Positions 2,883-53,186 of a stretch of 53,738 nt of DNA are shown here, in pieces (the first letter of the stretch is position 1; every line of letters starts with the position of its first letter). Under the pieces are notes generated by a model that had not been told where the DNA came from, made no database searches, and was given only the letters and a program-made list of their open reading frames with translations. The translations under genes and the position numbers were made by a program. The stretch covers positions 1 through 53,738 of the IMG/VR virus record IMGVR_UViG_3300020578_000107; one strand, 5' to 3'. Origin of the DNA: a virus.

Positions 2883-3284
2883 ATGCCTGTCGAACGGGTA
2901 AGTAAAGGTTTTAAAGATTTAAGTATGACTTTTCAGGTTAATCCTGTTAGTTTTGACATGATTGCAATTAAAAATGAAAATGCAATTGCCCGTTCAATCA
3001 GAAATTTGGTTTTTACTCTTCCCGGAGAAAGATTTTTTAATCAAAATTTGGGATCAAGAGTAACTCAATCTCTTTTTGAGAATATGGATGGCATTAATGC
3101 ATCTATCATTAGAGATGAAATTGAAAATACAATCAAAAATTATGAGCCAAGAGTGAAGTTAATAGATGTAATCGTAGAACCTAATTACGATGATAATGAA
3201 TTTAATGTGATCATAAACTTTCGTATTATTGGAATTGAAGCTCTTCCACAACAATTATCATTCGCACTGCAGCCAACACGATAA
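2883..3284 (+). CDS. 25: baseplate wedge subunit gp25
   Basis: At 133 residues this matches T4 gp25 (132 aa), the lysozyme-like-fold wedge protein that with gp6 and gp53 starts sheath assembly. Seen in the sequence: the conserved AIARSIRNLVFTLPGERFF segment (about residues 35-53), then the LGSRVTQSLFE stretch and C-terminal strands ending in VIINFRII. It heads the baseplate operon, and its TAA overlaps the ATG of gp6 by one base (TAATG), indicating coupled translation. No Shine-Dalgarno sequence is visible, but late promoter boxes sit just upstream. Confidence 0.93.
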   Translation: MPVERVSKGFKDLSMTFQVNPVSFDMIAIKNENAIARSIRNLVFTLPGERFFNQNLGSRVTQSLFENMDGINASIIRDEIENTIKNYEPRVKLIDVIVEPNYDDNEFNVIINFRIIGIEALPQQLSFALQPTR

Positions 3285-5200
3285 TGGCATTAGTTAATTT
3301 CACAAGTCTAGATTTTGATCAAATAAAGACTTCGATCCGTGAGTATCTCAGATCGAATTCTGATTTTACTGACTATGATTTTGAAGGATCAAATCTTTCA
3401 GTATTAATTGATATTCTAGCATATAACACATATATCTCCTCATATAATGCTAATATGATTAGCAATGAGGTTTTTATTGATAGCGCAACACTGAGAGAAA
3501 ATGTAGTTGCTCTTGCTAGAAATATTGGTTATGTTCCCAAATCCAGAACAGCAGCAAGGGCATCAATTTCATTCTTTGTAGATACTACAAACTTCTCCAT
3601 AAAACCACTTACTTTAACATTAAATAAAGGTGTTGTATGTGCATCGGCAAATGTGTTTGGAAATGAAAGTTATAGTTTTGCTATTCCAAATGATATAACA
3701 GTTCCAGTTACTAATGGAATTGCTTTTTTTGAGGGTGTCGAAATTTATGAGGGAACATTTTTAACTTCAAACTTTGTAGTCCCCTCTGGTACATCTTTTG
3801 AAACCCAAAGATACATTCTTGATAATGCAAACATTGATACATCAACTATTTCAGTAACAGTCAGAGACACCCAATCAAGTACATATTCTAGAAAATTTGT
3901 TTTATCCAATAATTTACTTTCGGTAAATTCAAAATCAAGAGTATTCTTTATACAAGAAATAGAAGATCAAAGATATGAGTTAATTTTTGGTGATGGTATA
4001 TTTGGGGAAAAACTATCTGCTTTAAATTATATTAATGCCTCTTACATTATTACGAGTGGAGAATCAGGAAATGGAATATCTTCATTTACATTCAATGGTA
4101 GAATTGTAGACAATAACAATGGTCTCGTCACTAATGGAATTTCTCTGGTAACAACAAATACTGCATCTCAGGGAGGAAAAGAAATTGAATCCTTGGATTC
4201 AATTAAAAAGTATGCTCCAAGAGTTTATTCATCTCAAAATCGCGCAGTAACTGCAATGGATTATGAAACCATTATACCAAGAATTTATCCAGAAACTCAA
4301 TCAGTATCAGTATTTGGTGGAGAAGATCTAGATCCACCTCAGTTTGGAAAGGTGTTCATTACTATCAAACCATCTTCTGGGTCATACATTCCAAGTTCAA
4401 TAAAAGATAATTTAAAAAAAGAACTTAGAAAATATAGTGTTGCGGGAATTGTTCCAGAAATTCTTGACATAAAATACCTTTATGTTGAAGCTGACATTAC
4501 TGCCTACTACAATCCCAATCTTGCACCAAATTCAGAGTATGTTAAAACTTTAATATCAAATAATATTAATTCATATACAAATTCTACTGAATTGAACCGC
4601 TACGGTGCGAAATTTAAATATAGCAAATTCCAAAAAATTATAGATGATAGTCATGAATCTATTACTTCTAATATTACAAAAATTCAAATTAGAAGAAATT
4701 TAAATCCAAATCTAAATCGGTTTGCTAATTATGAACTTTGTTATGGAAATTCTTTTCATATTAAGAGTATGGGAGGATATAATATAAAATCCTCTGGATT
4801 TACAATAAGTGGAATACAAGAAACTTGCCATCTATCAGATCTACCAAATTCGAATAAAAAGACAGGCACAATTTTTATATTTACGAACCCCGACTCAATT
4901 AATCCAGTAATTCAAAATAAATCAGTTGGAACCATAGATTATGAAAAAGGTGAGATTATACTTAATGAAATTCAAATAATATCTACATCAAAAACTTTTA
5001 ATGGAGAACCTATAATTGAAATTGCTGCGATTCCATCTTCGAATGATGTTATCGGAAAACAGGATCTTTATTTGGAACTAGATATTAATAACACAACCTT
5101 AAACATGAAAATTGATGATATTTCTTCTGGTGCAGATATTTCTGCATCTTTATATGATTCCACCATAAGTTACACAAACGGTAGTCGCGTAAGAAAATAA
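3284..5200 (+). CDS. 6: baseplate wedge subunit gp6
   Basis: This 638-residue protein is close to T4 gp6 (660 aa), which forms the ring of the baseplate wedge. The N-terminus (LVNFTSLDFDQIKTSIREYL, then LSVLIDILAYNTYISSYNANM) is the typical baseplate-J/gp6 start, and a conserved core follows around residues 300-400 (KKYAPRVYSSQNRAVTAMDY). The C-terminal third is beta-rich. It overlaps gp25 by one base and is followed after five bases by the giant gp7-like gene, so the three are one transcription unit. Confidence 0.93.
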   Translation: MALVNFTSLDFDQIKTSIREYLRSNSDFTDYDFEGSNLSVLIDILAYNTYISSYNANMISNEVFIDSATLRENVVALARNIGYVPKSRTAARASISFFVDTTNFSIKPLTLTLNKGVVCASANVFGNESYSFAIPNDITVPVTNGIAFFEGVEIYEGTFLTSNFVVPSGTSFETQRYILDNANIDTSTISVTVRDTQSSTYSRKFVLSNNLLSVNSKSRVFFIQEIEDQRYELIFGDGIFGEKLSALNYINASYIITSGESGNGISSFTFNGRIVDNNNGLVTNGISLVTTNTASQGGKEIESLDSIKKYAPRVYSSQNRAVTAMDYETIIPRIYPETQSVSVFGGEDLDPPQFGKVFITIKPSSGSYIPSSIKDNLKKELRKYSVAGIVPEILDIKYLYVEADITAYYNPNLAPNSEYVKTLISNNINSYTNSTELNRYGAKFKYSKFQKIIDDSHESITSNITKIQIRRNLNPNLNRFANYELCYGNSFHIKSMGGYNIKSSGFTISGIQETCHLSDLPNSNKKTGTIFIFTNPDSINPVIQNKSVGTIDYEKGEIILNEIQIISTSKTFNGEPIIEIAAIPSSNDVIGKQDLYLELDINNTTLNMKIDDISSGADISASLYDSTISYTNGSRVRK

Positions 5201-5205
5201 AAAAC

Positions 5206-8200
5206 ATGGTAGTTACAAGAATCAAAATTAGTTCAGTTGTTGAAAATCAACTTCCATCTTTTGTAAGAGATGAATTTCCACTTGTAAATGAATTTTTATC
5301 TGAATATTATAGTTCACTTGAATATCAAGGTGGTGTATTAGATCTTTTGCAAAATATAGATCGATACATTAAATTAGATCAACTTACTAATCTTGTAGAT
5401 TCCACAACGATTACATCTGAAATTAATCTTGGCGATGCCACAATAAATGTACAATCGACAAAAGGATTTCCGGATTCTTATGGATTATTAAAAATTGGGT
5501 CCGAAATTATTACGTACAAATCCAAAACCAATACTTCATTTAATGAATGTGTTAGAGGATTTAGTGGGGTAATTTCTCACCAAAATCCATTAAAACCAGA
5601 TAATTTGATTTTTACAACATCAGCAAGAGAAGAACATGTGAATGGTTCTTCTGTTTTGAATTTAAGTATTTTATTTTTAAAAGAATTTTATAAAAAAGTA
5701 AAAAAACAATTTTCGCCAGGATTTGATGAAAGAGATTTATTTTCAAATTTAAATCAGAGTCTTTTTATAAAGCAAGCGAAGGACTTTTATTCTTCAAAAG
5801 GGACCGACCAATCCTTTGAAATTCTTTTTAGATCTTTATATGGAGAAGATGTTGAGGTAATTAAACCAAGAGATTATTTGTTTACTCCATCGGATGCACA
5901 ATATAGAATTACAAAAGATTTGATTGTAGAAGAAATTGAAGGTAATCCTTTTGATCTTCTCAACAGAACTCTTTATCAAGATGAAGATTCTTATTTTAAA
6001 TCGACTTTTGGATCGGTTAATAATGTTGAGAAAGTATCTAGGGGTGGAAAAGATTATTATGCTATTAGTTTAGATTATGATCCCAATGTAGATTTAGAAA
6101 AAGATTCTCAACGTTCTGATTTTTCTATTCACTCACAAACAAAATTAGTTACATCTTGCTCAATTGGATCAGATGTTATAGATGTTGATTCTACAATAGG
6201 ATTTCCAAATTCTGGATTTTTAGTTGCAGATTTATCTAACGGAACATCTCTTACCATTTCATACACATCAAAGTCATACACACAATTTTATGGATGTACT
6301 GGAATAGATCAGGAGTTAATTTCTGGGCAAAATATTAGAATTAATTCATATGCCTATGGATTTGTTGGATCAGACGTTGTTAAAGTAAGAGTCACCGGAG
6401 TTTTATCTAATTTAAATTATGGTGTTGATACCAAGTATCATGATGAAGGAGAGTCTATTCAAATAAAAACTATTGGAAAAGATTCTAATGATGTAAGAGC
6501 AAATAACTGGATTTTTAATATTGCCACAACATATGATATTGACACTCTAACATTAACAGATTTAGTAAATTTTTCTTATAGAATTGTAACAATAGATAAT
6601 CATAGCATATATGTTGGGGATAGTGTAAAGTTAATTTTCACCGATAGTACCGAAGTAGTATCTTCGGTAGTTGAAGTTTTAAATCAAAAATCTTTCATTA
6701 TTGCAGATCAAGGACAAATTGACGTAAACAAAAAATATAAGGTTCAAAAATTAATATCCAAGACAAATGCTTTAAATTTTTCATCATCTAATATTTACAG
6801 CACTAATGTACAGAATACATATCAAGATGGAAAAAACTCTTTTTATGTAACTTCATCTTCTCTACCAAGTTACTTGAATCAGTCATTATTGGTAAAAGAT
6901 AGGTCTGTAACTTTCTCCGGATTCTTTAATGGTGTAGATTTAGTAATCGGAAATCATGGATTCTATACAGGAGATGCTGTTTTTTATTCTGCAGAGTCAG
7001 TCTCTAATAGTCTAGGTATTCAAGATCAAATTTATTTTGTCAATAGAGTAAATTCAACAACAATTAATTTATCTAGAAGTAGATCTAACCTTTACGAAGA
7101 CAAATTTATTTCATTTAATGCTACTGTCACAAATAATAAATTAGTTTTTAATGATTTTTATAACCAAACTCTTGATAATCAAAAATTAGTAAGAAATATT
7201 TTATCGCCAGAAATTGCGTCAAATTCTACTGAGACCTCCCCAGGACCGATAGGAATTTTAGTTAATGGAGTTGAAATATTAAATTATAAATCAAGAGACA
7301 GTCTTTTTTATGGACCATTGGAGGAGATAAATGTTTTATCTCCTGGATCAAATTATGATGTTATAAATCCTCCCATTCTTTCAATATCAGACCCTGTTGG
7401 ATTTGGAGCAACTGGATTTTGTGAAGTTGAAGGGGAGTTTGAAGAAATACAAGTTATTGATGGTGGTTTTGATTACATAACAGAACCTGTAATTAGTGTT
7501 ACTGGTGGTTCTGGGTCGGGAGTTCAAGCAAAGGCTCAACTCATTGATTTTAGTCATGCTGTTTCTTTTAATGCAACATCTTTCGGAGATGTTAATCTCA
7601 CCAATGACACAATTACATTTTCAAATAACCACAAATTTAGAAATGGTGAAGTAGTTATCTATGACCCAGAAGGTCAACAGTCTGTTGGTGGATTGAGCAC
7701 AAATTCCACTTATTATATCTCAACGCAAACAGAAAAGCAGATAAAAATTCATACTAATGCAAATGATGCACTTACAAATACAAATCCAATAAATCTCACC
7801 TCATATGGTGTTGGTAATCATAGACTTATTTCGGTTCAATTAAAGAAAAAGATTTCTTCTGTTATACTAACTAATAAAGGAACAAAGTATAAGAATAGAA
7901 AAATTTCAATAAGTCCAGTAGGAATTAATACATTTTCAAATATAATTGAAGCAAAAAACCATGGATATTCAACGGGAGATATAATTGTTTATTCCACAAC
8001 CGGCAGTGAAATTGGTGGGTTGCAAAATGGAAAATCTTATTTTGTAACTTCTCTTGATGAAAATTCCTTTAAACTATCTAATGTTGGAACATCAAGCACT
8101 ATTGGAATAGGGTCAGCTATTGTTGGTGTATCAACTTCCCTAGATTTCTATTTTAAAAATAAACAGTATGTTAATCTCTCAGGTAAAGGAACAGGAAATC

Positions 8201-27535: not shown

Positions 27536-28380
27536 TGGCACAACCATCTACCCGACAAGAACTTATTGATTACTGCAAAAGGCAGTTGGGAGCACCAGTT
27601 CTTGAAATCAACGTTGCAGACGAGCAAATAGAAGATCTGGTTGATGATGCAGTTCAATATTTTCAAGAAAGGCATTTTGATGGTGTTGCACAAACTTTCT
27701 TAAAATATCAAATAACACAAGATGATATTGACAGAGGAAGGGCTCCTGGAAATAATAAAACAGTAGGTATTGCAACTACATCCGCAACAGCAATAATTGA
27801 CGGAACTCCAACTACTTTTGCATATAAAGAAAATAGTAATTTTCTACAAATTCCACCTTCTGTAATCGGAATTACAAAAATATATCACTTTGATGGTACG
27901 AATACTACAACAAATAATATGTTTAGTATTAAGTATCAGTTGTTCCTTAATGACATTTATTATTGGGGATCAATGGAAATTTTAACTTACGCTATGGTAA
28001 AAAGATATTTGGAGGATTTGAATTTCCTTTTGACAACGGAAAAGATGATTAGATTTAATAAAAGGCAAGATAGATTGTATTTAGATATTGATTGGGGTAG
28101 TGTTAAGGTTGGCGATTATTTAATTATAGACTGCTATCGAGCATTAGATCCAAACGATTTTTCAAGAGTTTGGAATGATTCTTTCTTAAAAAGATATCTT
28201 ACTGCTCTCATTAAACGTCAGTGGGGACAAAATCTAATTAAATTCCAAGGGGTTAAACTTCCAGGTGGAGTTGAGTTAAATGGGAGACAAATATATGATG
28301 ATGCACAGAAAGAACTTGAATTAATAATGGAACAAATATCGAATACTTATGAACTTCCACCATTAGATATGATTGGTTAG
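27535..28380 (+). CDS. 13: neck protein gp13
   Basis: The 281-residue protein is close in size to T4 gp13 (309 aa), part of the neck that closes the packaged head and connects it to the tail. The N-terminus (TRQELIDYCKRQLGAPVLEI, then EDLVDDAVQYFQERHFDG) and the central IYYWGSMEILTYAMVKRYLE segment are typical of cyanophage gp13, as is the C-terminal WGQNLIKFQGVKLPGGV block. It overlaps the small gene before it by one base and gp14 after it by eight bases. Confidence 0.88.
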   Translation: MAQPSTRQELIDYCKRQLGAPVLEINVADEQIEDLVDDAVQYFQERHFDGVAQTFLKYQITQDDIDRGRAPGNNKTVGIATTSATAIIDGTPTTFAYKENSNFLQIPPSVIGITKIYHFDGTNTTTNNMFSIKYQLFLNDIYYWGSMEILTYAMVKRYLEDLNFLLTTEKMIRFNKRQDRLYLDIDWGSVKVGDYLIIDCYRALDPNDFSRVWNDSFLKRYLTALIKRQWGQNLIKFQGVKLPGGVELNGRQIYDDAQKELELIMEQISNTYELPPLDMIG

Positions 28381-29803
28381 TCATATGCTTAATCCATTTT
28401 TCATTCAAGGAACCAAATCAGAACAAGGACTCATTCAAGATCTGATTAATGAGCAACTTAGAATGTATGGCGTGGAAGTTTATTATCTACCTCGAACATA
28501 TGTTACAGAAAGAACTGTAATACGAGAAGTTATTGAGTCTAATTTTGAGAATGCATATCCAATAGAAGCTTACGTAAACACATATGAGGGTTATAGTGAT
28601 AATCCAACAATTTTGTCAAAATTTGGTATCCAAGCACTGAATGAAATAACTTTGATTATTTCTCGAGAAAGATTTAAAAACTATATTTCTCCTTTAATTA
28701 AGAATAAACAAAATATAAAATTATCAACAAGACCAAAAGAAGGAGATCTAATTTATTTTCCTCTGGGCGAAAGACTATTTGAAATTAAATATGTTGAGCA
28801 TGAAAAACCATTCTATCAACTTCAAGGATTATATACATATGAACTAAGATGTGAACTGTTCAGATATGAAGATGAACTTATTGATACTGGAATTGATGAG
28901 GTTGATAGTCTCATTACCGGAGATGACTCTTTGGAATCTGAGCAATCTCCAATTGGAAACATGGTAAGTCTAACAATGGTTGGAGTTGGAGTTACTGCAA
29001 CTGCAATTGCAAATATTGTTAATGGTGGTGTTAGAAGAATAACTATTACCAACAGAGGAGGAGGATATACAAGTGTTCCTCAGGTAGGAATATCAACTGC
29101 ACCGATAGGAGGAAAAACAGCAACAGCTGTCGCAGAAATGATTGGAGGTATTGTTGTATGTAACGACAACACAAATCCAAATGCAAGATCTGTTCAAAGT
29201 GTACGAATTACAAATGCTGGATTTGGTTATACAACTAGACCAGGAGTGAGATTTATTGGTGGAGGTGGTAGCGGAGCAACTGGTGTTGCAGAAATTGCCA
29301 ATGGAGTAATTGGCATTATTACAGTTACAAATGGTGGTTCTGGATACACAATTCCACCAACTGTGACAATTACTGGTATTTCGACTGTTATTACCTCAGT
29401 TGCTGCAACTGCGATTGTTTCCGCAGCAGGAACAATTTCTTCAATTCAAATTCTGAACGGAGGAATTGCATTTACGTCCACCCCCACAATTCAAATAGGT
29501 AATCCATCACTCAATTCTACTGGAAACTTTGTATTCAATGAACTGGTCACAGGTTCTCAAAGTGGTGTAACTGGAAGAGTTAAATCGTGGAATTCTGTTA
29601 CAAATATTCTAAAACTGTCTCAGGTTAGTGGAGAGTTTATAGCAGGAGAAAATATTGTTGGGGCAGCATCAAGTGCATCTCATTATTTACGTTCTATTGA
29701 TGTTGATCCTGTTGATGACGGATATGCATCGAATAAAGAAATAGAGATTGAAGCAGACAAAATAATTGATTTTAGCGAAAAGAATCCATTTGGAATGCCA
29801 TAA
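28373..29803 (+). CDS. 14: neck protein gp14 with inserted beta modules
   Basis: gp14 works with gp13 at the head-tail joint. Residues 1-190 carry the family core (LNPFFIQGTKSEQGLIQDLI, then YYLPRTYVTERTVIREVIES and YPIEAYVNTYEGY), and the last 40 residues carry the usual end (EIEADKIIDFSEKNPFGMP). Between them, about residues 197-390, lie Gly-rich repeats of the form 'ITNxGxGYTxxPxVxIxG...ATAIV', as in the gp7-like protein. This raises the length to 476 against 256 for T4 gp14. The modules are therefore an internal insertion and probably decorate the neck surface. Confidence 0.88.
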   Translation: MVSHMLNPFFIQGTKSEQGLIQDLINEQLRMYGVEVYYLPRTYVTERTVIREVIESNFENAYPIEAYVNTYEGYSDNPTILSKFGIQALNEITLIISRERFKNYISPLIKNKQNIKLSTRPKEGDLIYFPLGERLFEIKYVEHEKPFYQLQGLYTYELRCELFRYEDELIDTGIDEVDSLITGDDSLESEQSPIGNMVSLTMVGVGVTATAIANIVNGGVRRITITNRGGGYTSVPQVGISTAPIGGKTATAVAEMIGGIVVCNDNTNPNARSVQSVRITNAGFGYTTRPGVRFIGGGGSGATGVAEIANGVIGIITVTNGGSGYTIPPTVTITGISTVITSVAATAIVSAAGTISSIQILNGGIAFTSTPTIQIGNPSLNSTGNFVFNELVTGSQSGVTGRVKSWNSVTNILKLSQVSGEFIAGENIVGAASSASHYLRSIDVDPVDDGYASNKEIEIEADKIIDFSEKNPFGMP

Positions 29804-30857: not shown

Positions 30858-31295
30858 ATGAAAATGAGTAAAAAATTTGACGATCTGAATGAAACTTTTA
30901 ATGTTAAAGCAGAGATAATCCCAGTTGAAAAAAAATCAGACATTGAAAAAATTGAAAAGATTAGTTCTGATATTAATGATGTTAAAAAAGATTATGAATA
31001 CACAAGAGGAAATCTTTATTCTTTAATAGAAAAGGGGCAAGAAGCTATTAATGGAATTCTCGAACTAGCACAAGAAAGTGAGATGCCGAGAGCTTATGAA
31101 GTTGCTGGCCAGTTGATAAAAAATGTTGCTGATGCAACTGATAAATTGATGGATTTGCAAAAGAAATTGAAAGATATTGAAGAAGAAAAGACAAAAGGTC
31201 CAACAACAGTAAACAACGCACTTTTTGTTGGATCAACAGCAGATCTAACAAAATTGTTAAAACAACAATCCCAAACTAACGATGAAGACATTTAA
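30858..31295 (+). CDS. 16: terminase small subunit gp16
   Basis: A 145-residue, mostly helical protein, similar to T4 gp16 (164 aa), which regulates DNA packaging by gp17. The central helix pair (NLYSLIEKGQEAINGILELA, then PRAYEVAGQLIKNVADATDK) and the C-terminal NNALFVGSTADLTKLL segment are characteristic. A second ATG at 30864 is an alternative start. It follows gp15 by six bases, and the next small gene begins inside its last codons. Confidence 0.9.
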   Translation: MKMSKKFDDLNETFNVKAEIIPVEKKSDIEKIEKISSDINDVKKDYEYTRGNLYSLIEKGQEAINGILELAQESEMPRAYEVAGQLIKNVADATDKLMDLQKKLKDIEEEKTKGPTTVNNALFVGSTADLTKLLKQQSQTNDEDI

Positions 31296-31410
31296 GCAAT
31301 TTCAAGAAGACTGGACTAATAAATATAAAAAGAGTATTGATTGCTCAAATCCAAAAGGATTTTCTCAACGCGCTCATTGTGCGGGAAGAAAAAAAAAGAG
31401 CAAAAGGTGA
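31282..31410 (+). CDS. 42-aa Cys/basic protein
   Basis: The ORF opens at ATG 31282, overlapping the gp16 end by 14 bases, and stops at TGA 31408-31410. It begins MKTFKQFQEDWTNKY and contains SIDCSNPKGFSQRAHCAGRKKK, with two Cys and a His framed by basic residues. The Cys module recurs in cyanophage structural proteins (recollection). The MKTFKQF start resembles the T4 capsid-targeting leader MKTYQEF, though no clear gp21 cleavage site follows. It is probably a small nucleic-acid-binding or zinc-binding virion protein; the function is unproven. Confidence 0.6.
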   Translation: MKTFKQFQEDWTNKYKKSIDCSNPKGFSQRAHCAGRKKKSKR

Positions 31411-31434
31411 AAGCACTAAGTCAAAACCAGTTGA

Positions 31435-33330
31435 ATGAAGAAAAACGGTCGCTGTCCTAAAGGAGAATATTATTGCTACACTAATAAAATGTGTAAAGCA
31501 ATTCCTGCTGGATTTATGGTTGATCCTGAGGGAATGCTTCGTAAAGAAAATGGTGCGTCGATTGATGAGGGTGCTCGTATTCCAAAAAAACCAGGACAAC
31601 CAGATAAATCTGATAAGCACTCAGATCTCTATACAGATGAAGATCCAAAAGGAACAATTCATGGTCTCGGTTTTAAAGATGTTCAGACTGCGAGACAGAG
31701 TGTATCAAAAATAAGAAACTCTGGAAGATCTCATGCTCATAAAATCCAAGCAGCAATTGCTATGGAGCAAAGAGCAAGAGTGGCAGGAAAAACTTCGGAA
31801 GCTGCTGTTTACAGAAAATTCATTAACTCGATGAAAAAGAAAACAAAATCAATGAATGAAGAAGGTCTCCGTGATTGGTTTGGTAAATCCAAATCAAAAG
31901 ATGGTAAAGGTGGTTGGGTTAATGTTGTAACTGGTGGCACTTGTGCGAGCGATGAACCAGGTGAGGGAACACCAAAATGCGTCTCCTCTGCAAAAAGAGC
32001 AAGTATGACACCAGCAGAAAGACTATCCGCTGCAAGAAGAAAAAAGGCAGCAGATCCTGGACAGCAACAAAAGACAGGTGCTGCAAAGCCAACTTATGTC
32101 TCAACTGATTCACCTAGAGAAAAAACACGTAAAGAAGAAATAGATTTAGTAAGTTTAATTGAAAAAAAACTTTGTAATCATACCAAAGAAGGTGTTGATT
32201 GTCCATGTCACGGAAAAAATAGGTGTCCAGTAGTGTTAAAATCAAAAGATCACGAGTACTCTATGGTTCGTTCAGAACTCTCTACAATTATGAGTGCTGC
32301 TAAGAGACTTAAATCCAAAATGGCAAAAGGTGAGGGTAATGTGGAGGCATGGGTGCAGTCAAAAATTACAAAAGCTGCTGATTACCTAGATAGTGCAGCA
32401 GACTACGTTGATAGTGGAGAAATGAACGAAGAGTCGGATAAAAAAGGTAAAGGTAGCGGTACAAAAGATGCTTGCTATCATAAGGTTAAATCAAGATACA
32501 GCGTTTGGCCTTCTGCATATGCCTCTGGAGCACTCGTAAAGTGTCGCAAGGTAGGTTCTGCCAACTGGGGAAATAAATCTGAAGAAAAAATCACAGATAG
32601 AATTCTAAATGATATTTTATCCGAAAAGTGTTGGCCTGGTTATAAAAAGAAAGGCATGAAAACGATGTTTGGAAAGCGTTATCCAAATTGCGTAAAAAAA
32701 GAGGATGTGACAATTGAAGATGCAGAAGGAAATACTTTTGCAGAGGTTGTTGATCTGATTAAACCAAAACCGATTAAAGGATTTAAATCTCAAATAGAAG
32801 AAGCAACAAGACTTCAGGCACAAACTGGAAACGTAGTTGCAGTAACTTTATCTTGGAGAGGAAAATATTATTCTCTTAAAATGTTTTTCCCCCAAGTAAA
32901 AACCCCAACTAAAAAAGAAATAAATGATGAACTTCAAAAAGTCTACCCAGGATCTATAGTTTTATATCATACTATTTCAGAAATTCAACCTGGACAACCA
33001 TTGATACAAGCATTTGGTCCTCAAGGAAGAAGTTTTGCATCTCCAGGTCCAAGTAAAAATTATGTGAAGACAATGGGGGAAGAAGTTGCAGCATGGCAAC
33101 GTTCTGCTGGCAAGAACAAGGAAGGTGGACTCAACGAAAGGGGGCGCAAATCTTATGAACGTGAGAATCCAGGAAGTGACCTTAAAGCACCATCAAAAAA
33201 AGTTGGAAATCCCCGTAGAAAAAGTTTTTGCGCTCGTATGTCCGGAATGAAAAAGAAACTAACATCATCAAAAACAGCAAACGATCCCAATTCGAGAATT
33301 AATAAATCACTTAGAGCCTGGAACTGTTGA
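31435..33330 (+). CDS. mosaic Cys-rich basic protein between the terminase genes
   Basis: This 631-residue, very Lys/Arg-rich protein is a string of short modules. Residues 1-40 have three Cys (GRCPKGEYYCYTNKMCKAIP). About 72-140 contain DPKGTIHGLGFKDVQTARQS and a helical HAHKIQAAIAMEQRA segment. About 145-225 contain RDWFGKSKSKDGKGGWVNV with two Cys, resembling DUF5872. A CNHTKEGVDCPCH cluster starts at 247 and KDACYHKVKSRYSVWPSAYA at 344. CWPGYKKKGMKTMFGKRYPNC spans 399-419. A globular beta/alpha segment covers about 440-525. The C-terminal 83 residues (AAWQRSAGKNKEGGLNERGR ... RRKSFCARMSGMKKK) resemble DUF6321. Such modules occur singly in many phage proteins. Its place between gp16 and gp17 suggests a DNA-associated or packaged role, which is inference. 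I see no catalytic motif. Confidence 0.72.
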   Translation: MKKNGRCPKGEYYCYTNKMCKAIPAGFMVDPEGMLRKENGASIDEGARIPKKPGQPDKSDKHSDLYTDEDPKGTIHGLGFKDVQTARQSVSKIRNSGRSHAHKIQAAIAMEQRARVAGKTSEAAVYRKFINSMKKKTKSMNEEGLRDWFGKSKSKDGKGGWVNVVTGGTCASDEPGEGTPKCVSSAKRASMTPAERLSAARRKKAADPGQQQKTGAAKPTYVSTDSPREKTRKEEIDLVSLIEKKLCNHTKEGVDCPCHGKNRCPVVLKSKDHEYSMVRSELSTIMSAAKRLKSKMAKGEGNVEAWVQSKITKAADYLDSAADYVDSGEMNEESDKKGKGSGTKDACYHKVKSRYSVWPSAYASGALVKCRKVGSANWGNKSEEKITDRILNDILSEKCWPGYKKKGMKTMFGKRYPNCVKKEDVTIEDAEGNTFAEVVDLIKPKPIKGFKSQIEEATRLQAQTGNVVAVTLSWRGKYYSLKMFFPQVKTPTKKEINDELQKVYPGSIVLYHTISEIQPGQPLIQAFGPQGRSFASPGPSKNYVKTMGEEVAAWQRSAGKNKEGGLNERGRKSYERENPGSDLKAPSKKVGNPRRKSFCARMSGMKKKLTSSKTANDPNSRINKSLRAWNC

Positions 33331-33347: not shown

Positions 33348-34994
33348 ATGTCAAATGATGTTTATCTTGGTAATCCGCTTTTAAAGAAAGCAAATACACC
33401 TATCGAATTTACGCAAGAACAAATTCTTGAATTTGTCAAGTGTAAAGATGATCCTGTTTACTTTGCAAATAATTATGTAAAGATTGTAACTCTGGATCAC
33501 GGTCTGCAAACTTTCAAACCGTATCATTTCCAAGAAAAGTTAATTAATAATTTTCACAATCACAGATTTAATATCTGTAAGATGCCAAGACAAACTGGTA
33601 AGTCTACCACTGTGATATCTTTTTTATTGCATTATGCTGTTTTTAACGATAATGTCAATATAGGTATTCTTGCAAACAAAGCTGCAACAGCAAGGGAACT
33701 TCTGGATAGGCTCCAAACTGCATACGAAAATCTTCCAAAGTGGATGCAACAGGGTATTATATCTTGGAATAAGGGATCTCTTGAACTTGAAAATGGATCT
33801 AAAATATTAGCAGCATCTACTTCGGCATCTGCTGTCCGAGGAATGTCATTTAACATTCTATTTTTGGACGAATTTGCTTTCGTTCCAAATCATATTGCAG
33901 ATTCTTTCTTTGCGTCAGTTTATCCGACTATTACTTCTGGTAAGCAAACCAAAGTTATTATAGTTTCAACTCCACACGGTATGAATCATTTCTACCGAAT
34001 GTGGCATGATGCCGAAAAAGGAAAAAATGAATACGTTTTTACTGATGTTCATTGGAGTGAAGTTCCAGGTAGAAATGAAGAGTGGAAAAAACAAACAATT
34101 GCTAACACATCAGAGTCTCAATTTAAAGTTGAATTTGAATGCGAATTTTTGGGGTCAGTTGATACTCTGATAGCACCATCTAAACTTAGAAATTTAGTCT
34201 ACGATCAACCAAAGACTCGTAGTGCTGGATTGGATGTTTATGTAGATCCAGAAGAAAACCACGACTATCTAATTACGGTTGACGTTGCAAGAGGGGTTGG
34301 TAATGACTATTCGGCATTTGTTGTATTAGATATAACTCAATTTCCACATAAAGTTGTTGCAAAATACAGAAATAATGAGATAAAACCAATGCTATTTCCA
34401 AGCATTATTCATGAGGCAGCTACTGCATATAATAATGCATATATTTTATGTGAAGTAAATGATGTTGGAGATCAGGTTGCTAGCATTCTGCAATATGATT
34501 TGGAATACACAAACTTATTGATGTGTTCAATGAGAGGAAGGGCTGGGCAAATCGTAGGACAAGGTTTTTCTGGAAAGAAAACTCAACTTGGAGTTAAGAT
34601 GTCAAAAACAGTGAAAAAGGTAGGATGTCTCAATCTTAAAACAATGATTGAGGAGGATAAATTATATCTCAATGATTATGAGATAATTGCAGAATTGACA
34701 ACATTTGTCCAGAAACATAACTCATTTGAAGCTGAGGAAGGATGTAATGATGATTTGGCAATGTGCTTAGTGATATATGCATGGATAGTTGCCCAAGATT
34801 ATTTTAAAGAATTGACGGATCAAGACGTTAGAAAAAGGTTGTATGAAGAACAGAAAAATCAAATAGAACAAGATATGTCTCCATTCGGATTTATCTCAGA
34901 TGGTTTAGATAGTAGTAGTTTTGTTGATGCAGATGGTGATAGGTGGTTTGTTGATGAATATGGCGATCGTTCTTACATGTGGGAATATATGTAA
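33348..34994 (+). CDS. 17: terminase large subunit gp17
   Basis: The packaging motor ATPase and headful nuclease; 548 residues against 610 in T4. The ATPase domain has Walker A RQTGKST (residues 81-87), Walker B NILFLDEFAFV (169-179, with the catalytic Glu after Asp) and the coupling motif VSTP near 207-209. The RNase-H-like nuclease domain starts with the metal-binding Asp of DYLITVDVARG (Asp312) and includes the late acidic GCNDDLAMCL segment. It should act with gp16 at the portal gp20. The gene order 16-17 is interrupted here by the two Cys/basic genes. Confidence 0.96.
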   Translation: MSNDVYLGNPLLKKANTPIEFTQEQILEFVKCKDDPVYFANNYVKIVTLDHGLQTFKPYHFQEKLINNFHNHRFNICKMPRQTGKSTTVISFLLHYAVFNDNVNIGILANKAATARELLDRLQTAYENLPKWMQQGIISWNKGSLELENGSKILAASTSASAVRGMSFNILFLDEFAFVPNHIADSFFASVYPTITSGKQTKVIIVSTPHGMNHFYRMWHDAEKGKNEYVFTDVHWSEVPGRNEEWKKQTIANTSESQFKVEFECEFLGSVDTLIAPSKLRNLVYDQPKTRSAGLDVYVDPEENHDYLITVDVARGVGNDYSAFVVLDITQFPHKVVAKYRNNEIKPMLFPSIIHEAATAYNNAYILCEVNDVGDQVASILQYDLEYTNLLMCSMRGRAGQIVGQGFSGKKTQLGVKMSKTVKKVGCLNLKTMIEEDKLYLNDYEIIAELTTFVQKHNSFEAEEGCNDDLAMCLVIYAWIVAQDYFKELTDQDVRKRLYEEQKNQIEQDMSPFGFISDGLDSSSFVDADGDRWFVDEYGDRSYMWEYM

Positions 34995-40609: not shown

Positions 40610-41260
40610 ATGAAACTTATTAGAGAAGAGATCGAAAAAGTAGAAGTTCTTACTGAAACAGTAAACGGCAAAAAAACTCTCTATATTCAAGGACCTTTCC
40701 TACAAACTGAACAACCAAACAGGAACAATAGAATCTATCGTATGCCTGTTATGGAAAGAGAGGTAAAGCGTTATACTGAACAATATGTAAACAAGGGTCG
40801 TGCTCTTGGAGAACTTGGTCACCCTGATGGACCTACTGTAAACCTTGATAGAGTCTCGCACAAAATTGTTTCTCTTGAACAAAGAGGAAATGATTTTATT
40901 GGAAAAGCACAAATCCTATCAACTCCAATGGGTAAGATTGCAGAGTCACTTCTTAAAGAAGGAGTTACTCTTGGCGTTTCTTCTCGTGGTATTGGTTCAG
41001 TAAGACCAACAAAAGAAGGATATAATGAAGTTGGTGAAGATTTTATGCTTGCAACTGCTGCTGATATTGTTGCTGATCCTTCTGCCCCTGATGCTTTTGT
41101 TCAAGGTATTATGGAAGGCAAAGAGTGGGTATGGGATGGTGGCATCCTAAGAGAAAAGTATGCAGAAAGGGCACAAAGACGTATTAATACGCTTGTAGAC
41201 CAAAGAAAACTTGAAGAGCATAAATTAAACTTATTTAATGATTTCTTAAATAGTCTTTGA
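40610..41260 (+). CDS. 21: prohead core protease gp21
   Basis: The maturation protease, 216 residues against 212 in T4. The longer frame from 40469 is a shadow; the ATG at 40610 (MKLIREEIEKVEVLTETVNG) follows a CAGGAG ribosome binding site and gives the family length. Catalytic features are His71 in ALGELGHPDGP and Ser124/125 in TLGVSSRGIGS, with ADIVADPSAPDAFV behind them. In T4 this enzyme cuts scaffold and capsid proteins after (Leu/Ile)-x-Glu; a matching site is visible in gp23. Confidence 0.93.
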   Translation: MKLIREEIEKVEVLTETVNGKKTLYIQGPFLQTEQPNRNNRIYRMPVMEREVKRYTEQYVNKGRALGELGHPDGPTVNLDRVSHKIVSLEQRGNDFIGKAQILSTPMGKIAESLLKEGVTLGVSSRGIGSVRPTKEGYNEVGEDFMLATAADIVADPSAPDAFVQGIMEGKEWVWDGGILREKYAERAQRRINTLVDQRKLEEHKLNLFNDFLNSL

Positions 41261-41315: not shown

Positions 41316-42455
41316 ATGTCTCGTGGTAAAAATTTACAAGAAATGGAAGTAGGCACTAAGCAATCCAAAACTGCTGTCAATGCCAGTGCGAAGCCAGCAG
41401 ATTCAATGGATACGTCAGGTGCCGGATCTTATGAAGATCTAGGAGGTCCTACCCCACAAAACTATAAGCCAGATGATGATTCAGCAAAGTTGAAAACACC
41501 TGGCACAACTTTAAAGCAAGTTAGAGATGTGGTTAATAAGGGCGCATCTGCTGCAGACCCAATCAAGGGTATGAAAGAAGAAGAAGAACTTGAAGATGAA
41601 GATCTTATTGAAGAAGAAATTGATGAAGATGAAGAAATTTTAGAGGATAAAGAAGAAGAGGAAGATGAGGAAGAGGGAGAAGAGGAAGATGAGAACGAAG
41701 AAGAGGAAGAAGTGGTAGAGGAAGAGTTTGACATTGAAGAAGATGTTAATGCTCTCCTAGAAGGTGAAGATCTTTCCGAGGAATTCCAAGAGAAAGCACG
41801 CATTATCTTCGAAGCTGCTCTTCGCTCAAAAGTTTCCGACATTAAGGAATCCCTAGAAGAGCAGTATGCAGCTGCTCTTCTAAAAGAAGTAGAAGTAATT
41901 AAAGAAGCACTTTCAGAGCGTGTAGATTCTTATCTAGAGTACGTCTCTGATGAGTGGTTCGCTGAGAACGCACTTACAATCGAGCACGGTCTCAAAACTG
42001 AAATGACTGAATCATTCCTCCAAGGAATGAGAGGACTTTTTGAAGAACATTATGTAACAATCCCTGAAGATAAATATGATGTGCTTGAGAGCATGGTAGA
42101 AAAACTTGATGAAATGGAAGAAAAACTCAACGAGCAAATCGAGAAAAACGTCTCCCTTAACAAGCGTCTCGCAGAGTCGGTTGCTGATGGGATTTTAGAT
42201 CAAGTCTCCGAAGGTCTCGCACAGACACAGAAAGAGAAGCTAGCTTCACTTGTTGAAAGTGTTGAGTTTGAAAGTGAAGAAGAATATCGTGAAAAACTGG
42301 AGACTTTAAGGGAATCATATTTCCCAACAAAGGGCATCTCTCCATCAGCTAAAACAGAAACCTTGTCTGAAGGTGTAGATTCTGCACCTGAAACTTACTC
42401 TGGTTCTATGGAAAGATATCTAAGAACTCTTGGTAGTTTTAGCAAAAATAACTGA
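41316..42455 (+). CDS. 22: prohead scaffold core protein gp22
   Basis: The major scaffold, 379 residues (T4 gp22 269 aa). Residues about 88-146 are almost entirely Glu and Asp, and the remainder is predicted long helix and coiled coil (AALRSKVSDIKESLEEQYAA; MVEKLDEMEEKLNEQIEKNV). Several (Leu/Ile)-x-Glu sites, such as LSE near the C-terminus, could be cut by gp21. The position between gp21 and gp23 is the T4 order. A GGAG sequence 9-12 bases upstream supports the start. Confidence 0.92.
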   Translation: MSRGKNLQEMEVGTKQSKTAVNASAKPADSMDTSGAGSYEDLGGPTPQNYKPDDDSAKLKTPGTTLKQVRDVVNKGASAADPIKGMKEEEELEDEDLIEEEIDEDEEILEDKEEEEDEEEGEEEDENEEEEEVVEEEFDIEEDVNALLEGEDLSEEFQEKARIIFEAALRSKVSDIKESLEEQYAAALLKEVEVIKEALSERVDSYLEYVSDEWFAENALTIEHGLKTEMTESFLQGMRGLFEEHYVTIPEDKYDVLESMVEKLDEMEEKLNEQIEKNVSLNKRLAESVADGILDQVSEGLAQTQKEKLASLVESVEFESEEEYREKLETLRESYFPTKGISPSAKTETLSEGVDSAPETYSGSMERYLRTLGSFSKNN

Positions 42456-42500: not shown

Positions 42501-43910
42501 ATGTTCCATTCAGAGCATCTGCAGGAAAAGTGGGCTCCACTCCTCAACTATGAGGGTCTTGATCCAATCAAAGATTCCCATCGTAAGGCGGTAACCGCTG
42601 TCCTGCTAGAAAACCAAGAAAGATTTTTAAGAGAGCAATCCTCTTTTGAGAGCGCAGGTTCATTCCTAACAGAAGCACCAACCAACGCAGTTGGTAATGG
42701 TGGATTCACCAGCGCAGGTGGAACCAACACCGCAGGTTTTGATCCAGTTCTAATCTCACTCATTCGTCGTTCAATGCCCAACTTGGTCGCTTATGACCTC
42801 GCTGGCGTTCAACCAATGAGTGGTCCTACTGGACTCATCTTCGCAATGCGTTCACGCTACACCAGTCAGAGTGGCACCGAAGCTTTCTACAACGAAGCAG
42901 ATACCGCATTCTCTGGTCAGCCTGCTGGTCTGGACGACGCTAATGGTTTCAGCGATGCTATCGCTGGTATGGGTACTACTGCACAGGCAGGTTCAAACCC
43001 AGCACTGCTCAACCCAGTTGGCAGCGCAAACTCAACCGGTTACAACGTTGGTCAGGGTCTAAGAACTGATTCAGCTGAGAACCTTGATGGTGTTGGTGCA
43101 GATGCATTCAACCAGATGGCATTCTCGATCGAGAAAGTCACCGTTACTGCAAAGTCACGCGCTCTGAAAGCTGAGTACTCACTAGAACTCGCTCAGGACC
43201 TCAAGGCTATTCATGGTCTGAATGCAGAAGCTGAGTTGGCAAACATTCTGTCAACTGAGATTCTTGCAGAAATCAACCGTGAAGTCATCAGAACCATCTA
43301 CAAGGTTGCTGAGCAAGGTGCAGTTCAAAACGTTGCAACTGCTGGTGTATTCGACCTCGACGTTGACTCCAACGGTCGTTGGTCAGTTGAGAAGTTCAAG
43401 GGTCTACTCTTCCAAATCGAGCGTGATGCTAACGCAATCGCACAAAGAACTCGTCGCGGAAAGGGCAACATCATCATGTGCTCTGCTGACGTTGCTTCAG
43501 CACTGACCATGGCTGGTGTTCTCGATTACACCCCAGCACTCAACGCTAACCTCAACGTTGATGACACTGGCAACACCTTCGCAGGTGTTCTCCAAGGTAA
43601 GTACAGAGTATACATCGATCCATATTCTGCAAACCTCACCGCCAGCAACACTGCTCCTTCTAACCAGTACTATGTTGTTGGTTATAAGGGTTCCAGCCCA
43701 TATGATGCTGGTCTGTTCTATTGCCCATATGTTCCTCTCCAAATGGTTCGTGCCGTTGGTGAGAACTCCTTCCAGCCCAAAATTGGCTTCAAGACTCGTT
43801 ATGGTCTTGTTGCTAACCCATTCGCTGAAGGAACTAACCAAGGTGGTGGTGCTCTTCGTGTTAACCAAAACCGTTACTACAGAAGAGTTGCTGTTAAGAA
43901 CCTCATGTGA
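42501..43910 (+). CDS. 23: major capsid protein gp23
   Basis: The HK97-fold head protein, 469 residues (T4 521). The N-terminus (LQEKWAPLLNYEGLDPIKDS) and PVLISLIRRSMPNLVAYDLA, then GVQPMSGPTGLIFAMRSRY are highly typical. A gp21 cleavage site is visible as FLTE-A (after Glu58), matching the T4 cut after Glu65 in position and type. C-ending codons (AAC, TTC, ATC, CTC, ACC) are much more frequent here than in neighbouring tail genes, as expected for the most abundant virion protein. No gp24 vertex gene is seen in the window, as in other cyanophages. Confidence 0.97.
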   Translation: MFHSEHLQEKWAPLLNYEGLDPIKDSHRKAVTAVLLENQERFLREQSSFESAGSFLTEAPTNAVGNGGFTSAGGTNTAGFDPVLISLIRRSMPNLVAYDLAGVQPMSGPTGLIFAMRSRYTSQSGTEAFYNEADTAFSGQPAGLDDANGFSDAIAGMGTTAQAGSNPALLNPVGSANSTGYNVGQGLRTDSAENLDGVGADAFNQMAFSIEKVTVTAKSRALKAEYSLELAQDLKAIHGLNAEAELANILSTEILAEINREVIRTIYKVAEQGAVQNVATAGVFDLDVDSNGRWSVEKFKGLLFQIERDANAIAQRTRRGKGNIIMCSADVASALTMAGVLDYTPALNANLNVDDTGNTFAGVLQGKYRVYIDPYSANLTASNTAPSNQYYVVGYKGSSPYDAGLFYCPYVPLQMVRAVGENSFQPKIGFKTRYGLVANPFAEGTNQGGGALRVNQNRYYRRVAVKNLM

Positions 43911-52886: not shown

Positions 52887-53186
52887 ATGAAAACCTTTCA
52901 AGAGTTTATGATGATCGCCGAAGGAATGACGATGAGGGACTTCAAACAACAAAGAAGTCGCCAGAAGCAAAAAGAAAAGAGAGCAGCAGATAAGATTGCT
53001 CCTAATCGCAGAAAGGATATTCATACTGATAGATATTCTCCTGAGAGAGCAGCAAGACATCGTTTTAATGTAGATCCTGATTTTGATGAGGGCCCAGCAG
53101 CAGACGAAAGAAACTATCCTGGTGGTAAGTTGAAGAATCCTAAGAAGATTCGCAAGGCAAAAGCACTTGGAGAACTTGGTGGATAG
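52887..53186 (+). CDS. basic protein with T4-like capsid-targeting leader, 99 aa
   Basis: The protein starts MKTFQEFMMIAEGMTM, very close to the T4 capsid-targeting sequence MKTYQEFIAEA of internal proteins and Alt. I-A-E (residues 10-12) fits the (Leu/Ile)-x-Glu site of protease gp21, which would leave a mature protein from Gly13. The rest is highly basic (RDFKQQRSRQKQKEKRAADK) with an acidic patch (DPDFDEGPAADE) and a Lys-rich end. This suggests a DNA-associated internal head protein, inferred from the leader and charge. A CTAAATA box lies just upstream. Confidence 0.7.
   Translation: MKTFQEFMMIAEGMTMRDFKQQRSRQKQKEKRAADKIAPNRRKDIHTDRYSPERAARHRFNVDPDFDEGPAADERNYPGGKLKNPKKIRKAKALGELGG

Follow-up and report, generated by a model that had tools for sequence, protein, structure and literature searches.

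A shuffling mosaic protein between the terminase genes of T4-like cyanophages: a proposed polyprotein of head-internal mini-proteins

We analyzed a 53.7-kb virus contig from a T4-like cyanophage relative, and refer to the whole stretch of 53,738 nucleotides as the window. ORF and profile matches confirmed the two reading frames that an initial annotation had placed between gp16 and gp17: a large ORF of 631 aa, preceded by a small one of 42 aa. The genes and features of this gap, the head genes further along, and a related gene near the end of the contig are as follows (here and below, a slash marks a proposed or known cleavage position).

30858..31295, plus strand: gp16, terminase small subunit, left edge of the gap (phrog_445, E 1.2e-56; PF11053)
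31282..31410, plus strand: 42-aa ORF beginning MKTFKQFQEDWTNKYKK..., with a SNKYKR module and an N-terminus like that of T4 ipI (MKTFKEF)
31389..31397, plus strand: A9 run that cuts the 42-aa ORF short
31435..33330, plus strand: 631-aa mosaic protein of the phrog_727/DUF6321 family
33348..34994, plus strand: gp17, terminase large subunit, right edge of the gap (PF03237 and PF17289, Terminase_6N/6C)
40610..41260, plus strand: gp21 prohead protease (Peptidase_S77; PF03420, E 1.4e-33), the proposed cutter
41316..42455, plus strand: gp22 scaffold (PF25623, E 4e-80)
42501..43910, plus strand: gp23 major capsid protein (PF07068), with a predicted cut LTE/A after residue 58
52887..53186, plus strand: 99-aa free-standing GMTMKD module behind a T4-like targeting peptide, MKTFQEFMMIAE/GMTM

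The initial annotation regarded a gene of this kind between gp16 and gp17 as unusual. The family is present in nearly all T4-like cyanophages. In an occurrence set anchored on gp17, and not on the mosaic protein itself, a family protein lies in the gap in 28 of the 28 contigs that also show gp16, and PMC3037559 describes the gap as a hot-spot for variable genes. For a cyanophage this is an ordinary location, and what stands out is the architecture. Because tail-fibre-like and metabolic genes share the gap in other phages, position says little about function, and position was the sole support for the packaging-motor role suggested earlier. Relatives of the mosaic protein were found by tblastn in 542 phage records, and DUF6321 searched alone was found in 555. 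In P-SSM4 (locus L004) the family gene (5493-6878) lies near gp61/nrdA, outside the gp16-gp17 gap, and its neighbor (3518-4492) holds further modules. Elsewhere in the window, the gp14 neck protein (28373-29803) is 476 aa long and has a glycine-rich repeat extension (residues ~250-375), whose matches include repeat families of baseplate and virion proteins as well as the connector family.

The 42-aa ORF does carry an additional module, SNKYKR, as had been proposed, but comparison with relatives indicates that it is itself the shortened form of a conserved 51-aa SNKYKR gene, produced by a homopolymer indel. Eleven relatives have A8 and an open 51-aa frame, which runs up to the large ORF's start codon, and one contig otherwise identical to the window at that spot has A10. 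Programmed slippage at the A run was rejected, since four relatives that lack the run encode the same 51-aa protein, and was further disfavored by the in-frame A8 of other relatives. The difference in run length is more likely an assembly or population indel.

The 631-aa protein matches PHROG 727 over residues 47-631 (E 8.9e-133), and its relatives S-SM2_109, S-SM1_115 and P-SSM4_160 are annotated T4-GC119. Formally it thus falls in one continuous family, a result that the initial annotation had named as speaking against a mosaic, but the cluster is one of mosaics and not of a single fold. The sole Pfam domain is a C-terminal DUF6321 (PF19846) at residues 559-629 (E 6e-22), scoring 78.5 bits against a gathering cut-off of 28.5. 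A DUF5872-like identity had been proposed for the RDWF region; Pfam gave no DUF5872 match at E<=1 for the window protein, nor at E<=0.01 for any of 59 relatives, and we dropped the assignment. Solved structures searched by sequence with the family profile gave no match. Starting at MKKNGRCPKG, the protein is a chain of about ten short modules.

31444..31560, plus strand: CYTDKKC, residues 4-42, three Cys
31576..31848, plus strand: HGLGF, residues 48-138, helical and basic
31867..32115, plus strand: RDWF, residues 145-227, two Cys, not Pfam DUF5872
32173..32229, plus strand: CNHT, residues 247-265, Cys/His cluster, possible metal site
32245..32424, plus strand: DHEYSM/AWVQSKITKAADY, residues 271-330, helical, without Cys
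32464..32580, plus strand: CYHKVK, residues 344-382, two Cys
32626..32697, plus strand: CWKGY, residues 398-421, two Cys
32707..32793, plus strand: NTFAEV, residues 425-453, acidic, usually without a site before it
32809..33006, plus strand: WRGK, residues 459-524, strand-strand-helix-strand fold, with free-standing relatives forming phrog_1742
33121..33327, plus strand: DUF6321, residues 563-631, family mean charge +13, two Cys, nearly always last

The mosaic character claimed in the initial annotation turned out to be stronger than stated. Apart from the DUF5872 assignment, its named parts are all present (the three-Cys N-terminus, the helical module, CNHT.., KDACYHKVKSRY, CWPGYKKKG and the DUF6321 end), and it had missed DHEYSM, NTFAEV and WRGK. 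Its description of every module as basic does not hold for DHEYSM and NTFAEV, whose mean charges are -2.2 and -2.8, though the whole protein has a charge of +49 and a pI of 9.7. Searching 19 seed modules over 173 loci gave 116 complete relatives with more than 40 architectures, among which modules duplicate, swap position or drop out, and DUF6321 is nearly always C-terminal. The recurrence of re-ordered modules in these relatives, together with the weakly structured beads of an AlphaFold2 model built with 59 relatives (pLDDT ~60-80 in the beads and below 50 in the linkers, pTM 0.20), establishes a modularity beyond chance. The whole model is too loose for structural comparison, and Foldseek against the PDB gave no match below E 0.001. 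The WRGK fold is well predicted; it had no significant PDB match, with weak resemblances to phi29 p6 and YkzG (E 0.2-0.3) on which we do not rely, and its matches in BFVD belong to its own family, with an S-SCSM1 'virion protein' on top.

The RDWF, CYHKVK and DUF6321 modules are strongly conserved, and CYHKVK, CWKGY and RDWF were found almost exclusively in T4-type cyanophages. Apart from DUF192 and DUF5661, both in relatives, we found no known families among the modules. Where modules contain Cys, usually only two are conserved, compatible with a disulfide or an intermolecular site; a metal-like residue pattern is seen only in CNHT (C,H,C,H,C) and in RYCPLC, a three-Cys module of relatives. 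Of the zinc-bound DNA condensation proposed earlier, the metal-like appearance survives for these two modules; a zinc-finger reading for every module is unsupported, most having two conserved Cys or none.

The modules are joined by linkers that make up 112 of the 631 aa. Per 100 aa, linkers carry a net charge of -5.6 and modules of +8.1, so that acidic linkers alternate with basic modules. The motif [LIMVF]-x-E-[AGSEK] occurs seven times in the protein, each time in a linker and never in a module (chance ~6e-6):

31561..31572, plus strand: candidate protease site IDE/G, Glu45
31852..31863, plus strand: candidate protease site MNE/E, Glu142
32155..32166, plus strand: candidate protease site LIE/K, Glu243
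32422..32433, plus strand: candidate protease site MNE/E, Glu332
32617..32628, plus strand: candidate protease site LSE/K, Glu397
32794..32805, plus strand: candidate protease site IEE/A, Glu456
33073..33084, plus strand: candidate protease site MGE/E, Glu549

Across 95 relatives, 566 sites fall in 11,428 linker residues versus 109 in 44,258 module residues. The form [LIMV]xE[AGSEK] was found in 71% of 64 junction types versus 20% after composition-preserving shuffling, a test whose z-scores are inflated because junctions share ancestry; for the same reason the count by module type is the fairer statistic (binomial ~1e-5), and for 17 of 18 module types, 81% or more of the unique linkers in front of them contain a site. 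The exception, NTFAEV, mostly comes after CWKGY. Relative to the linker Glu, hydrophobic residues are most frequent at -2, where they reach 45% versus a background of 19%, and they are underrepresented at -1. Replacing Glu by Lys in the junction test gave no enrichment, and replacing it by Asp only a slight one.

The candidate linker sites resemble the site of the T4 prohead protease gp21, which is described as cutting after L/I-x-E (PMC9026906). The strict L/I-x-E form is weakly enriched (35% versus 23% of junction types), and polyprotein sites often have V or M at P3 and E or K at P1', unlike the L/I of T4; in the window protein, P3 is L or I at four sites (IDE/G, LIE/K, LSE/K, IEE/A) and M at three. 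Cyanophage gp23 in the analyzed loci has L-x-E right before a conserved PTN, the expected site, with P3 always L, and at orthologous leader sites M occurs at P3 and V does not. According to PMC9026906 phiKZ uses S/A-x-E; P3 preference therefore varies among phages. The window's gp22 is rich in PHI-x-E motifs, with 5.3 [LIMV]xE[AGSEK] per 100 aa. Cutting the 631-aa protein at the seven candidate sites would give eight predicted fragments of 5.1-10.8 kDa with pI 8.4-10.7.

PMC9026906 describes the internal proteins of T4 as basic proteins of the head that are targeted by a 10-residue leader; in the T4 record, ipII and ipIII start MKTYQEFIAE/A and ipI starts MKTFKEF. No capsid targeting leader is present on the 631-aa protein itself, and since this defining leader is absent we did not file the protein as a member of the T4 internal protein family. 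Only the neighboring 42/51-aa gene and free-standing module genes carry one. Modules that also exist as separate genes are WRGK-like (phrog_1742), SNKYKR, GMTMKD, NTFAEV and DUF6321, and several of them follow a T4-like targeting peptide such as MKTFQEFMMIAE/G or MKTFKQFMSE/S. Module genes of cyanophages, both inside the gp16-gp17 gap and outside it, start MKTFKQF, MKSFKQFISE/S, MKSFQQFMSE/S or MKTFQEFMMIAE/G, and WRGK-like domains are preceded by MK[ST]F[KR]QF[ILM]SE/S. The window's 99-aa GMTMKD gene starts MKTFQEFMMIAEGMTMRDFKQQ... and has no match in Pfam or PHROG; it is 76% identical to a copy within the polyprotein of relative L077, and the two have an E/G junction in common, MKTFQEFMMIAE/GMTM in the window gene and VEIEE/GMTM inside the L077 polyprotein. 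In S-SM2_108 (3064-3492 of locus L001), a leader MKTLKQFLKE/ is fused to a gp23-like stretch that spans the gp23 cut site (31 aa, 77%), followed by an unknown domain, an internal KTFEEFRE/SW and then the SNKYKR module; this internal joint is the former leader of SNKYKR. T7-like phages encode DUF6321 by itself, adjacent to the capsid gene; in P-SCSP1i, HTVC104P and S-CBP4 the stand-alone gene is 83-94 aa long and sits adjacent to, or not far from, the gene for the major capsid protein or the scaffold. Its presence in podoviruses unrelated to T4 suggests a head role that would not need gp21.

An uncut virion protein, a beads-on-a-string chain binding DNA or capsid in a flexible and multivalent manner with the acidic linkers as spacers, would accommodate the weakly predicted domains and disordered linkers (pTM 0.20), the joining of basic modules by acidic linkers, and the single module order common to many relatives. 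Spacers do not explain, however, the hydrophobic residue at -2, the depletion at -1, the near-absence of the motif from modules, or the recurrence of the same E/G junction in a separate gene, where it follows a targeting leader, and we consider an uncut chain rather unlikely.

Homologues of the protein occur in virions. The S-SCSM1 homologue (ORF29) is labelled 'virion protein' in its record, from a study that used mass spectrometry (PMC9602691), and S-CREM2 gp136 and gp137, both encoded between gp16 and gp17, were detected by mass spectrometry with 8 and 4 peptides (PMC10665884, Table 3), the 4 gp137 peptides amounting to a low coverage of 4%. gp137 ends in DUF6321, and gp136 carries the leader MQTFSMFFSE/DA. 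A virion location is thus supported through homologues in published proteomes; of the earlier proposal of a virion or injected protein, this part stands, and ejection is a step that we would add by analogy. A cofactor that acts with the terminase in packaging or assembly, loading or condensing DNA and never becoming a stable virion part, would fit the retained position between gp16 and gp17 (28/28 contigs) and the basic modules. It sits poorly with homologues in purified virions, when the terminase is absent from the S-CREM2 virion protein list, and with a P-SSM4 family gene that lies elsewhere, near gp61/nrdA; we regard such a cofactor as highly improbable.

We applied the leader pattern to the complete genomes of S-CREM2, S-SCSM1 and S-SM1, all with proteomes. 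Five annotated genes match it, and the products of four have been detected in virions (S-CREM2 gp136 and gp154, the S-SCSM1 NMNAT and the S-SM1 T4-GC190 cytidylyltransferase), three of the four being adenylyl/cytidylyltransferases; the fifth, S-SCSM1 ORF30, matches the leader and is without a virion label. For S-CREM2 and S-SCSM1, finding three or more of the four leader genes in virions has a chance probability of 0.025, on small numbers. By this pattern, leaders resembling capsid targeting sequences appear to predict virion content in cyanophages, and our literature search found no paper tying such sequences to cyanophages. The virion NMNAT/cytidylyltransferase genes (S-SCSM1, MK867354 88819-90048; S-CREM2, OR473000 124608-125468; S-SM1, GU071094 148256-149419) encode enzymes starting with the capsid-targeting-like MKSFLQFLKEA, MKNFSSFLTEA and MKKFSAFLNEA. 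Such leaders could explain why these enzymes are in the particle.

The family is real and ordinary in its location, and the mechanism we propose is a polyprotein of head-internal mini-proteins cleaved in the prohead. Building on the observed module shuffling, site placement, near-constant location, virion homologues and the presence of gp21, gp22 and gp23 on the same contig, we infer a capsid-interior location, cleavage itself, DNA binding and ejection. In this reading, to which we assign a probability of roughly 0.55, the 631-aa product would be the precursor of virion proteins of the head interior, and gp21 would cut it into some eight basic proteins of 5-11 kDa. The chain would be built of small folded domains, most of them basic and many with conserved Cys or His, separated by short, acidic, disordered linkers with gp21-type sites (hydrophobic-x-Glu, then a small or charged residue). 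It would enter the prohead core, and gp21 would cut the linkers upon head maturation, in the window phage into eight proteins of 5-11 kDa with pI 8.4-10.7. These would remain among the packaged DNA and probably be ejected along with it; after packaging they may serve in DNA packing, in ejection or in effects on the host. Because each module would bring its own cut site, modules would be exchangeable: they could be added, dropped, re-ordered or relocated to single genes with a leader. We give roughly even odds to the broader picture of a shuffling polyprotein of head-internal mini-proteins with their own sites, whose cargo moves to and from leader-tagged genes and whose leader also serves the virion NMNAT/cytidylyltransferase enzymes.

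The modules might also be head-internal effectors, one per module, that act after ejection in anti-restriction or host take-over, like T4 IPI. Cleavage would then free the modules to pass the tail, which extends rather than excludes processing of the precursor by gp21. The rapid module turnover resembles that of arms-race cargo, T4 IPI blocks a restriction enzyme according to PMC9026906, and some leaders carry enzymes; set against this, DUF192 and DUF5661 in relatives are the only modules of known family, and the strong conservation of RDWF, CYHKVK and DUF6321 is more like that of structural or DNA-binding roles. We consider effectors of this kind improbable.

If true, gp21 processing of the mosaic protein would assign a role to a gene family of unknown function that is among the most widespread in T4-like cyanophages, with members in hundreds of genomes. 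It would also account for the mosaic look of the proteins, and would show that tailed phages can supply capsid cargo as a polyprotein. The leader motif linked to it would offer a simple rule for predicting cyanophage head contents, and would account for the virion NMNAT and cytidylyltransferase.

Among known families, PHROG 727/T4-GC119 contains the 631-aa ORF by sequence, and its S-SM1, S-SM2 and P-SSM4 relatives are so labelled, but the family is listed as of unknown function, without modules, linkers or cleavage sites being described. DUF6321 (PF19846) corresponds to the C-terminal module, and in T7-like cyanophages and in HTVC104P it is a gene of its own, adjacent to capsid genes; Pfam gives no function for it, and the domain covers 71 of the 631 residues. 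The head proteins and prohead proteases of phiKZ and SPN3US likewise involve head-internal cargo cut after a short Glu-ending motif, but the available part of PMC9026906 describes the removal of propeptides and not the splitting of one chain into many domains. The T4 gp22 scaffold, and gp67, are similar in that one chain receives many gp21 cuts and leaves small internal fragments (PMC9026906). Unlike the mosaic pieces, which are predicted to be folded, mostly basic and often Cys-containing, gp22 is an acidic scaffold that is mostly degraded and lost. T4 IPI, IPII and IPIII are, as described in PMC9026906, small basic head cargo that varies between phages; their leader reads MKT[YF]xxF..E, and they are cut by gp21 after PHI-x-E, as we propose for the mosaic family. 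Each T4 internal protein has its own gene and its own leader, whereas the mosaic protein has many modules per chain and the large protein is leaderless, and the searches we ran found no homology of the modules to the T4 proteins. The proposed mechanism thus amounts to that of the T4 internal proteins combined with multiple cutting in the style of gp22.
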